NCBI GenBank assembly: GCA_020061125.1
Contig: JAGUYV010000293.1
Coordinates: 1-18,133, forward strand
Reading direction: 5' to 3'
From: a bacterium
GTDB taxonomy: Bacteria; UBP15; UBA6099; DSWB01
DNA length: 18,133 nucleotides
Shown here in pieces: positions 8,014 through 17,523 of the stretch (positions are counted from its first letter, which is position 1; each line of letters starts with the position of its first letter). Both the position numbers and the translations under genes were made by a program. A model generated the notes under the pieces. That model saw nothing but the letters and a program-made list of their open reading frames with translations, searched no databases and was not told where the DNA came from.

Positions 8014-8664
8014 TCACATGCCGCTGTCCGGGCGCATGTAGAAAATCTGCAAACGGCCCTTGATGGAGCCTGCGTAGAAAGCCGCGGACAGGGTTTCGCC
8101 ACCGGAGCGCGAGGCGTTGACGCTCACGGCAGCGCAATCGGAAATCCCCATGGCGCGCCCCGCGTCCGCAGCCTGTTTTGCAGTCACGGCTTCCGGCAAA
8201 TCCAGATCCTTCATATAATCTTCGGATACATCCGTGAACAGCGCTTTCTGTTCCTCGACCATGCGCTGGCTGATGTTGGCGATCTGTTCGTACACGGCCG
8301 CGCAGGCCATGGGCTTTATGGCGGCTTCGCACGCGTCATATTTCTCCTGCGGCGCAGCCGGAGAGGAAGCGCTGATGGATTTGGCTTCGGCGATATACTC
8401 TTCGAGCGTGGCCTGGGCTGGATACTGCGCATGGTTGAGTCGTGCGGTGTACTCGGTAAGCGCACCGCCCTGCATGAGCCTGGCCGCAGTTTCAGACTTG
8501 CACAGATCTTTTTCGAGCTGTTTCATGGGGTCCGCGGCCTTGCGATCCGCACTGGCGCCCGGAACCGGCTTCGGTGCTCTGGCCCTGTTGCAGGAAACCC
8601 CGCCCAGGCCAGTTGCGGCCGCAAGCGCCGCCGCAAACACGAACTTGAAAAACCCGCGCTGCAT
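8014..8664 (-). CDS. Small exported protein, five-cysteine family, member A
   Basis: 216 residues from the ATG at 8664. An in-frame ATG 15 bases earlier lies inside the ribosome site (GGAGGAAAATATC before the chosen ATG), so it is rejected. The N terminus is basic then hydrophobic (MQRGFFKFVFAAALAAATG) and ends in GGVSC. Cys25 could be lipidated, although Gly at -3 makes the lipobox atypical. The mature part has exactly four further cysteines: 55 (KDLC), 112, 121 and 177 (MGISDC). The same plan is seen in the two genes upstream, which suggests two disulphides and a common fold. I recognise no named family. It is followed by its own terminator (7831-7863), and the upstream gene also ends in a terminator, so it is its own unit. 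Confidence 0.78.
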   Translation of the reverse strand: MQRGFFKFVFAAALAAATGLGGVSCNRARAPKPVPGASADRKAADPMKQLEKDLCKSETAARLMQGGALTEYTARLNHAQYPAQATLEEYIAEAKSISASSPAAPQEKYDACEAAIKPMACAAVYEQIANISQRMVEEQKALFTDVSEDYMKDLDLPEAVTAKQAADAGRAMGISDCAAVSVNASRSGGETLSAAFYAGSIKGRLQIFYMRPDSGM

Positions 8665-8680
8665 GATATTTTCCTCCAAT

Positions 8681-8704
8681 GCCCGTATGCCCGTATGCCC
8701 GTAT
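8681..8704. repeat. Three tandem copies of GCCCGTAT
   Basis: Three perfect 8-base units lie head to tail at 8681-8688, 8689-8696 and 8697-8704, immediately upstream of the ribosome site of the gene at 8014-8664 (read as ATACGGGC on its strand). A TAAAAT -10-like hexamer (8708-8703) overlaps the outer end, so the array probably forms the first transcribed bases. No good -35 is visible. Confidence 0.85.
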
Positions 8705-8742
8705 TTTACCCGGTGCGGCCGCGCGCGTCCTGCGGTGAATTG

Positions 8743-8770
8743 AAAAAACCGGGGCGGCGCGCCGCCCCGG
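8743..8770 (-). terminator. Intrinsic terminator after the 176-residue lipoprotein gene
   Basis: A perfect 22-base palindrome (8749-8770, all G and C) is followed on the - strand by six U residues (8748-8743). It lies 33 bases past the stop of the gene at 8804-9334. The strength of stem plus U-tract makes this one of the clearest signals in the window. The + strand side has only TTT, so it is mainly one-directional. Confidence 0.92.
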
Positions 8771-8803
8771 TTTCTGATTGCGGTTCATGCCGGCGCAAGC
8801 CGA

Positions 8804-9334
8804 TCACATATCGCCGATATACCACTTGCCCTCAACCTTGATGGTGGGGATTTCTTCTTCTTTTTCTTCTTCATCCGGAGATTTGGACTTGATCTTCACG
8901 ACACCGCAGGCCTCGACTTTCTCGATGCCCATTTCCTTAAGTTCGGCGGGAATTTCGCTGTCGCAGGCCTTCTCTTCCGCGGAAAGCACGGAGCAGGATT
9001 CGAGCATGGCTTCACCCTTCATTTCTTCCTTGAACATCTCGCGGGGATCGCCTTCCATTCCGTACTCGGCCATCTGCTTCTTCATGGCGTCGAACATCTG
9101 CGGGGGCATGAGATCCAGAAGCGCGCCCACATCACCGGCCAGACCGGCCTTGCACATTTTGTCGCCCAGTTCCTGAACGCCGCTGATTTTCGGCTCGGCT
9201 TTGGCCGCTGCCTTTTCCCCGGCTTTGCCAGCAGCTTCTTTTCCACCCTTTTCGCCGCCCTTGTTGCTGCAGCCCGTCACGGCCAGGGACACGGCGAACA
9301 CACAACACAGCATTGCCATAAGAATCTTTTTCAT
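8804..9334 (-). CDS. Lipoprotein, five-cysteine family, member B
   Basis: 176 residues. The signal peptide ends in a standard lipobox, AVTGC, with lipidated Cys22 followed by Ser, which would send it to the outer membrane under the usual Lol rule. Residues 25-49 are a Lys/Gly/Ala/Glu-rich, repeat-like tether. The globular part has Cys61 (DKMC), Cys114 (ESCSVL), Cys124 (KAC) and Cys143 (EACGVV), matching its two neighbours, and ends in GKWYIGDM. A strongly acidic stretch (DEEEKEEE, 154-161) lies between Cys143 and the C-terminal strand. The ATG follows GGGAGGA. It has its own near-consensus promoter (9483-9511) and a strong terminator (8743-8770), so it is monocistronic and probably well expressed. 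No function can be named. Confidence 0.88.
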   Translation of the reverse strand: MKKILMAMLCCVFAVSLAVTGCSNKGGEKGGKEAAGKAGEKAAAKAEPKISGVQELGDKMCKAGLAGDVGALLDLMPPQMFDAMKKQMAEYGMEGDPREMFKEEMKGEAMLESCSVLSAEEKACDSEIPAELKEMGIEKVEACGVVKIKSKSPDEEEKEEEIPTIKVEGKWYIGDM

Positions 9335-9482
9335 TCTCTCTGACTTCCTCCCATGAGTTTTTTGGAATCGTTCATAATGTCTTGTTTATCTGTAAGCGGC
9401 GTTCGCGTACTTAGCCGCGAATCGTATCCATGATGAGCGCTTGGCGTAACATTCCCTGCGCGCGCCATGCTGAAGTTGACCC

Positions 9483-9511
9483 ATCATATCATCACAAAAG
9501 ATATATGTCAA
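9483..9511 (-). promoter_or_regulatory. Near-consensus sigma70-type promoter for the 176-residue lipoprotein
   Basis: On the - strand: TTGACA (9511-9506, perfect), 17 bases, TATGAT (9488-9483, 5 of 6). Transcription should begin near 9476, giving a leader of about 142 bases. That leader contains a TTCGCG/CGCGAA hairpin (loop 8) in its middle. Confidence 0.78.
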
Positions 9512-9513
9512 AA

Positions 9514-9537
9514 TCACAGGCCCGTGATCCATGTCAC
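9514..9537. promoter_or_regulatory. Phased GTGA/TCAC half-sites, possible CRP/FNR-type operator
   Basis: Directly upstream of the -35 box, read on the - strand, GTGA (9537-9534), TCAC (9527-9524) and GTGA (9517-9514) start exactly 10 bases apart. The first two form TGTGA-N6-TCACG, close to the CRP-type palindrome. The last two form ATCAC-N6-GTGAT. A further GTGA (9495-9492) lies in the promoter spacer. The symmetry is seen; the identity of the regulator is inference. Confidence 0.42.
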
Positions 9538-9565
9538 ATGACAGATATGCGCCGTCATTGTGCAT

Positions 9566-10180
9566 TCAGCGCATTTCCGGCATTTCCGTTATTATGCGCC
9601 AGCTCCCGCCGGTTTTTCCGGCCAGAAATTTCTGGCTCTGCGCTTCACGGCCCTTGAGCTTGTATGAAACCACCAGATAACCGCACGAGTCCACGCCCAT
9701 GGCCTCGAGCACGCCCAGGACCGCGTCCTCTGAAAACAATGCGCCTCCGCCCGTGGAGAGGTCCGCGGCTGCGGTCTCGCAGGGCGCGGGTTCTTCCAAA
9801 ACTTCACAGGTCTCGATGGGATGCGCCGCCAGGTCCGCTTTCATGTCGCCGGTCAGAGATTCCATTTCCGCGCGCGCTTCCTCAATCGCCTGATCCAGGG
9901 TTTTGTCCTGGAGATCCATCATGAGGGCGGTGCCGCGCAGCCGGGTGATGAATTCCACGGACTGCACCATGAGACCTGGGATGCGCTCGGCGCTACACAG
10001 ATCCGCGGCCAGGGTTCCGAACACGGGCGGTTTCGAGGGTTTCTTGTTTTGCAGCTGTGTGTCCGCGGGCGCGTGGGCGGTTTTGTCCGCGGGTTTGCCG
10101 TTGCCGTCATGCTTGCGGCATCCGGCCGGCACAAGGCCCAGGGCGAAAAAAACCATGATCGCGGGAACGATTTTCCTCAT
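9566..10180 (-). CDS. Small exported protein, five-cysteine family, member C
   Basis: 204 residues. MRKIVPAIMVFFALGLVPAGC is a signal peptide with a probable lipobox (PAGC; Pro at -3 is not ideal) and lipidated Cys21. A Lys/Pro/Ala-rich tether (22-54) follows, then Cys62 (ADLC), Cys125 (IETCEVLEE), Cys134 (PAPC) and Cys166 (MGVDSCGYLVVSY), and a closing SWRIITEM. The Cys order, the MGxxxCG turn and the C-terminal Trp-x-Ile strand match the two genes downstream, so the three are probably old duplicates. GGAG lies 8 bases before the ATG, inside a hairpin loop. The gene has its own promoter (10244-10272). No strong terminator follows; the short ATCAC/GTGAT hairpin at 9513-9528 is a weak candidate. 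Confidence 0.82.
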   Translation of the reverse strand: MRKIVPAIMVFFALGLVPAGCRKHDGNGKPADKTAHAPADTQLQNKKPSKPPVFGTLAADLCSAERIPGLMVQSVEFITRLRGTALMMDLQDKTLDQAIEEARAEMESLTGDMKADLAAHPIETCEVLEEPAPCETAAADLSTGGGALFSEDAVLGVLEAMGVDSCGYLVVSYKLKGREAQSQKFLAGKTGGSWRIITEMPEMR

Positions 10181-10243: not shown

Positions 10244-10272
10244 ATACTATCACGCCTCTGTAGGATTGTCAA
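10244..10272 (-). promoter_or_regulatory. Promoter for the 204-residue lipoprotein-like gene
   Basis: On the - strand: TTGACA (10272-10267, perfect), 17 bases, TAGTAT (10249-10244, 4 of 6). The start of transcription would be near 10237, about 57 bases before the ATG. The promoter layout parallels that of the neighbouring 176-residue gene, but the GTGA array is not present here. Confidence 0.65.
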
Positions 10273-17106: not shown

Positions 17107-17259
17107 TCACAGAGAACGCGGAGTTTACACAGAGACACGGAGGATTCCGTGCAACGCGGCCCCGGCCGCGTCATTCGTGTCCTTGGTGTCCTTCGTGGAT
17201 AACTCTTTTCAGCCTTTGCCCTGTGCCCTCTGTGGCCTCCGTGGTAATCATTGCCTTTG
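17107..17259. repeat. Palindromic intergenic repeat, copy 1
   Basis: A purine-rich arm (17107-17143, with CACAGAGA and ACACGGAGG), a GCGGCC-CC-GGCCGC core (17156-17169) and a long pyrimidine-side arm (17181-17246, with CCTCTGTGGCCTCCGTGG) form an imperfect inverted repeat. Bases 17156-17259 recur about 95% identical at 17420-17523. It belongs to the widespread family of CACRGAGG-type repeats seen between genes in environmental bacteria. No transposase is present. Confidence 0.85.
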
Positions 17260-17383: not shown

Positions 17384-17523
17384 AGGACACCGCGGAGGCG
17401 CGGAGATTTTATTTTAAGCGCGGCCCCCGGCCGCGTCATTCGTGTCCTTGGTGTCCTTCGTGGATAACTCTTTTCAGCCTTTCCCTGTGGCCTCTGTGGC
17501 CTCCGTGGTAATCCTTGCCTTTG
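17384..17523. repeat. Palindromic intergenic repeat, copy 2
   Basis: Same orientation as copy 1. A shorter purine arm (17384-17405, AGGACACCGCGGAGGCGCGGAG) precedes the GC core and the conserved 104 bases (17420-17523). The two copies differ by a few substitutions and two single-base indels. The remaining sequence of the 17035-17642 gap shows no credible gene. Confidence 0.85.

Follow-up and report, generated by a model that had tools for sequence, protein, structure and literature searches.

Genes and transcription signals at the locus

The window, that is, the whole 18,133-nt stretch of contig JAGUYV010000293.1 that was analysed, carries three adjacent genes on one strand, here called LP3, LP2 and LP1, together with candidate transcription signals (Table 1). 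All three predicted proteins have the same layout, in which an N-terminal hydrophobic leader is followed by a low-complexity linker and by a domain of about 130-175 residues containing exactly four cysteines. LP1 likely starts at the ATG at 8664, which is preceded by GGAGG; the ORF tool's choice, the TTG at 8679, is a less likely start.

Table 1. Coordinates of the LP genes, their domains and neighbouring signals in the window
Feature	Position	Strand	Description
LP3	9566..10180	minus	204-aa exported protein; weak lipobox VPAG-C21
LP3 four-cysteine NTF2-like domain (predicted)	about 9569-10036	minus	
LP2	8804..9334	minus	176-aa lipoprotein, AVTG-C22; shortest of the three
LP2 four-cysteine NTF2-like domain (predicted)	about 8807-9190	minus	weak, sub-threshold DUF4878 match
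LP1	8014..8664	minus	216-aa lipoprotein, GGVS-C25
LP1 four-cysteine domain	about 8026-8538	minus	longest C3-C4 insertion of the three
Promoter-like site before LP3	10244..10272	minus	TTGACA-17-TAGTAT, TG before second hexamer; 10/12, consensus only
Promoter-like site before LP2	9483..9511	minus	TTGACA-17-TATGAT, TG before second hexamer; 11/12, consensus only
Intrinsic terminator between LP2 and LP1	8744..8775	minus	14-bp stem, GCGC loop, U-rich tail; -26.2 kcal/mol, z -3.96
Perfect 8-bp tandem repeat	8679..8704		ATGCCCGT x3.2, directly upstream of the LP1 ribosome-binding site

The initial annotation proposed that the three genes are separately controlled. The strong terminator between LP2 and LP1 and the promoter-like sites before LP3 and LP2 speak for this, but no promoter was recognised for LP1 in the sigma-70-like scan, which returned four sites over the two strands, where 1.0 is expected from shuffled sequence. 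The terminator was missed by the pattern scan, probably since some of the U run is paired within its stem. Judged from these signals, separate transcription of LP3, LP2 and LP1 is plausible. As a separate observation, slippage in the tandem repeat upstream of LP1 could alter expression of this gene.

A family defined by four invariant cysteines

Each of the mature proteins was originally described as having five cysteines, and this count is correct when the lipobox-type cysteine is included (positions 25/55/112/121/177 in LP1, 22/61/114/124/143 in LP2 and 21/62/125/134/166 in LP3). However, the leader cysteine falls outside the plan, because the anchors differ between family members; the shared plan is one of four cysteines, C1 to C4. 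As to the probable lipidation of the N-terminal cysteine, LP1 and LP2 pass the PROSITE-type lipobox rule, and LP3 fails it with Pro at -3. C2 and C3 indeed form a close pair, with gaps of 9, 10 and 9 residues in LP1, LP2 and LP3, whereas the MGxxxC turn ascribed to all three occurs in LP1 and LP3 and is replaced by MGIEKVEAC in LP2.

As the initial annotation noted, overall identity is low (22-25% between pairs), and yet the three proteins are clearly related. An HMM built from the members outside the window recognised leaderless LP1, LP2 and LP3 with E-values of 1.6e-10, 5.4e-10 and 6.4e-17, respectively, and still did so after every cysteine had been changed to alanine (8e-4, 5.8e-4 and 9.1e-7), whereas shuffled versions with the cysteines kept in place gave E-values above 1. 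On these sequence comparisons, the homology of LP1-3 is real and not a coincidence of cysteine counts, because the match survives the loss of the cysteines and is not reproduced by the cysteines alone; the paralogy and the shared cysteine plan are thus strongly supported by both the HMM and the alignment.

The four cysteines occupy the same columns in all 15 aligned family sequences, a count that leaves out the orthologue L046, in which the anchor motif has no match. Identity across the family is only about 15-28%, and the conserved spacings are about 46-82, 9-11 and 18-56 residues for C1-C2, C2-C3 and C3-C4, with C1 placed in the first helix or at its end and with no CxxC or CxC pair among the four. 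A C-terminal Trp in the last strand is near-invariant (13/15; LP1 has Leu). Apart from the cysteines and this Trp, no column exceeds 10/15, the remaining conservation consists of scattered Gly, and among charged residues one Arg column alone reaches half of the sequences (8/15).

Searches of the curated databases agreed with the earlier statement that no named family has this plan. No Pfam or NCBIfam family reached its cut-off for any member, and the NCBIfam matches were at chance level; a sequence profile search of the PDB and a plasmid search with LP3 found no match, and PHROGs gave one weak match to one member. LP2 scored 20.6 bits against DUF4878 (PF12870), below the gathering cut-off of 24.1; no other member matched this family, and no match in the organism's own genome exceeded the cut-off. 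Membership in DUF4878 was rejected, as the scores lie below the Pfam cut-off.

Predicted fold

AlphaFold2 models were built from an alignment of six sequences, four of which are clearly distinct. The LP2 model (pLDDT 78.5, pTM 0.65) has the element order HHHH-E-H-EEE and the LP3 model, of moderate confidence (pLDDT 68), HHHH-E-HH-EEE, so that the two agree in the succession of helices, strand, helix and three strands. Both models show the features that characterize the NTF2-like fold, namely helices on a curved sheet in the order alpha(s)-beta-alpha-beta-beta-beta. Nearly every top structural match of the LP2 model is NTF2-like, including the DUF4878 structure 3k7c (Foldseek probability 1.00; Z 9.3, 3.1 A over 100 residues) and YchJ 9vxg (Z 10.5, 2.3 A over 97 residues). 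For the LP3 model the best VIA match is again 3k7c (Z 5.4, 4.5 A over 96 residues), in a list that is mostly NTF2-like. The expectation that the three proteins share a fold is supported by the likeness of the LP2 and LP3 models, while LP1 would be NTF2-like by homology only; with this qualification, LP1-3 probably share the NTF2-like fold.

Cysteine pairing and the question of metal binding

The genome encodes a VKOR protein with a CPYC site (94 bits; cut-off 27.5), and disulfide formation outside the cytoplasm is therefore possible. Both models place C2 at the beginning of a single strand of about ten residues and C3 after it. Pairing of C2 with C3, as anticipated in the initial annotation, appears unlikely from the models, because the intervening strand puts the two cysteines too far apart. 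In an antiparallel meander, the strand that follows would begin at C4 and bring it close to C3, and C2 would be a neighbour of C1 in the first helix; the modelled arrangement thus fits C1-C2 and C3-C4 better than C2-C3. A search for members with a lost cysteine pair, which would reveal the pairing, gave no new members.

Four invariant cysteines with little else conserved could instead bind zinc, iron or an Fe-S cluster, as invariant cysteine tetrads can also do, which would make these metal-binding or redox proteins and not disulfide-stapled binders. This alternative gains some plausibility from YchJ and other SEC-C proteins, which rank among the top structural matches of LP2 and in which an NTF2-like domain is joined to a cysteine-rich motif. 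However, there is no CxxC or CxC pair among the widely spaced conserved cysteines, C2 and C3, separated by the length of a predicted strand, would leave a tetrahedral site unclosed, and the domain is predicted to be exported by an organism that encodes VKOR. We consider metal binding unlikely. The likeness of LP2 to YchJ and SEC-C proteins (9vxg, 2jq5, 2i9w) lies in the NTF2-like fold, for which YchJ gives the best Z of LP2; they differ in that LP2 is exported and has four spaced cysteines, and no SEC-C motif was detected here. SEC-C was absent among the Pfam matches up to E 1, and mature LP1-3 contain no CxC.

Relation to known NTF2-like domains

The closest known counterparts are DUF4878 domains (PF12870; 3K7C, Cj0202c), for which 3K7C is the representative (PMC3924330). 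The similarity covers the predicted fold and element order as well as the Trp near the C-terminus found in 13 of the 15 four-cysteine sequences, a conserved C-terminal Trp being a hallmark of DUF4878 (PMC3924330). In contrast, every four-cysteine member scores below the Pfam cut-off, and four invariant cysteines are not among the features given for DUF4878 in that paper. Exported NTF2-like domains occur in lipobox, signal-peptide, transmembrane and zinc-ribbon architectures, and non-catalytic ligand binding has been proposed for them (PMC3924330). The present family is likewise predicted to be exported by lipobox, signal peptide or transmembrane segment, and in relatives (P0013) the four-cysteine domain lies behind a zinc ribbon, which was matched, and a transmembrane segment recognised by eye. 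By analogy, this agreement in architecture with exported DUF4878-type domains is an independent point that favours the NTF2-like assignment. One such gene (L031 1159-2145, the same gene as L035 5001-5504, of ADurb.Bin236) encodes a zinc ribbon, a lysine-rich linker, a transmembrane segment and a C-terminal four-cysteine domain, an arrangement that resembles membrane-spanning sensors.

MTB12, DUF4783, the N-terminal domain of PBP2a/PBP5 and the NTF2 domain of RsgI9 gave further fold-level matches to LP3 or LP2. All of these have an extracytoplasmic setting. They differ from LP1-3 in their partner domains, and no PDB sequence match links them.

The NTF2-like assignment might nevertheless be an artefact of a shallow alignment, the true fold being an unrelated alpha+beta one, considering the six sequences behind each model, the moderate confidence of the LP3 model and the lack of any Foldseek match with E below 0.001 for the LP2 and LP3 models. 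Against this, the long match lists of both models are almost entirely NTF2-like, LP2 reaches Z-scores of 9-10, and the sub-threshold sequence match of LP2 to DUF4878 points in the same direction. We therefore give this objection a small chance of being right and retain the NTF2-like fold as the probable one.

Dispersed paralogues and distribution

Searches of the organism's own genome (4.1 Mb in 513 contigs, 79% complete) revealed at least 13 four-cysteine domains in 12 genes, LP1-3 included. At least ten of these domains lie outside the window, on the nine contigs C285, C348, C98, C464, C275, C457, C65, C428 and C11; the C11 protein has two in tandem, and those of C348 and C275 are truncated at contig ends. 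The leaders vary: a lipobox match is found in LP1, LP2, C285, C464 and C457 and is absent from LP3, C65, C428, C98 and C11, of which, by eye, C98 looks transmembrane-anchored and C65 and C11 look signal-peptide-like. The C464 paralogue (L010 1114-1488) also has a second cysteine-rich region of about 125 aa after the four-cysteine domain, without a Pfam match.

The initial annotation held that the three genes diverged long ago but stayed adjacent, so that LP1-3 would be an ancient tandem triplet, diverged in place, whose copies were kept together for different conditions. The adjacency of three members on one strand, with the terminator and promoter-like sites between and before them, fits this idea. 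However, in pairwise phmmer comparisons the best match of each protein is on another contig (LP3-C285 1e-15, LP2-C348 2e-14, LP1-C464 9e-8). In a maximum-likelihood tree LP1-3 fall into different groups, and a tree uniting them was rejected (AU p 0.0013), although long branches and mostly weak forks keep this from being strong proof. Furthermore, the presence of the triplet in related genomes had been put forward as a check, and none of the order's six other genomes has it; they contain 0-2 members each. Divergence in place is hence hardly probable; LP1-3 belong to a family scattered over the genome and are not a tandem array of that kind, and a local triplet gives way to a genome-wide paralogous expansion. 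The gene neighbours of the paralogues, from ORF lists and Pfam (LpxB, SPFH/band-7, LprI-like, epimerase, PilT-like and others), include none that recurs, so that no partner can be proposed.

The family is present in five of the seven genomes of its order, which belongs to the candidate phylum UBP15, and no credible members were found in the 379 other genomes (386 sampled in total). A single scan of genome contigs, with the concatenated family members as query, gave as named relatives bacterium ADurb.Bin236, UBP15_UBA6099 and isolate USCA_metabat.19_sub. UBP15 has been listed as 'Candidatus Lagoxiota', with six genomes of 2.56-4.55 Mb from black smoker, digester and wastewater samples (PMC11382960). 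Weak matches outside the order were not counted, being a leader or lipobox match in one genome (G010) and confined to leader positions in two others (G026 and G050); a further match (G125) was a chance one in a 2Fe-2S protein region.

Proposed role of the four-cysteine domains

We consider it fairly probable that LP1-3 represent lineage-specific, multi-copy extracytoplasmic NTF2-like domains of UBP15 that are stapled by two disulfides and serve in non-catalytic binding. In each domain a layer of helices would cover a curved sheet of four strands, and DUF4878-type and other NTF2-like domains would be its nearest counterparts in structure. After export, its four cysteines would form two disulfides, predicted to be C1-C2 and C3-C4, which would staple the helix layer and the variable loop onto the sheet. 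Such a domain would probably bind or recognise a small ligand or a partner protein without catalysis, and interchangeable leaders would hold it at the membrane or release it into the periplasm.

No active site is suggested, because no polar residue is conserved enough, the Arg column being the only charged one to reach half of the sequences. That these are SnoaL- or ketosteroid-isomerase-type enzymes using the NTF2 pocket catalytically is very improbable: the NTF2-like fold does include many enzymes (PMC3924330), but no catalytic polar residue is conserved in the 15-sequence alignment. We infer that a non-catalytic binding module is the most likely role. A more specific proposal, doubtful but not far-fetched, is that this phylum-specific two-disulfide NTF2-like family, with its at least 13 domains in one genome on interchangeable anchors, provides a set of receptors that differ in ligand specificity and act in the periplasm or at the surface.

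The four-cysteine family is real, unnamed and lineage-specific and is probably a new branch of a known kind of protein, the exported NTF2-like domains; its surprising element is the invariant four-cysteine staple and the copy number, not the triplet. A protein family unnamed in the searched databases is now defined, with a probable fold and a phylum. If its members are receptors, they would open a way to learn what this uncultured and hardly explored phylum senses or binds beyond its inner membrane; if not, they add one more branch to a large and already diverse superfamily.

Other features of the window

At 984-2003, the window encodes an exported-looking protein with a HEIAHVYD motif that suggests a zinc metallopeptidase; its Pfam matches are sub-threshold only. 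Two near-identical repeat copies, at 17160-17259 and 17425-17523, lie about 265 nt apart and agree at 98% over 61 nt and 93% over 44 nt. Their reverse strand would read as HGGHRGHRE/EGHQGHE-like peptides, and they probably represent a repeat in intergenic DNA rather than a gene.
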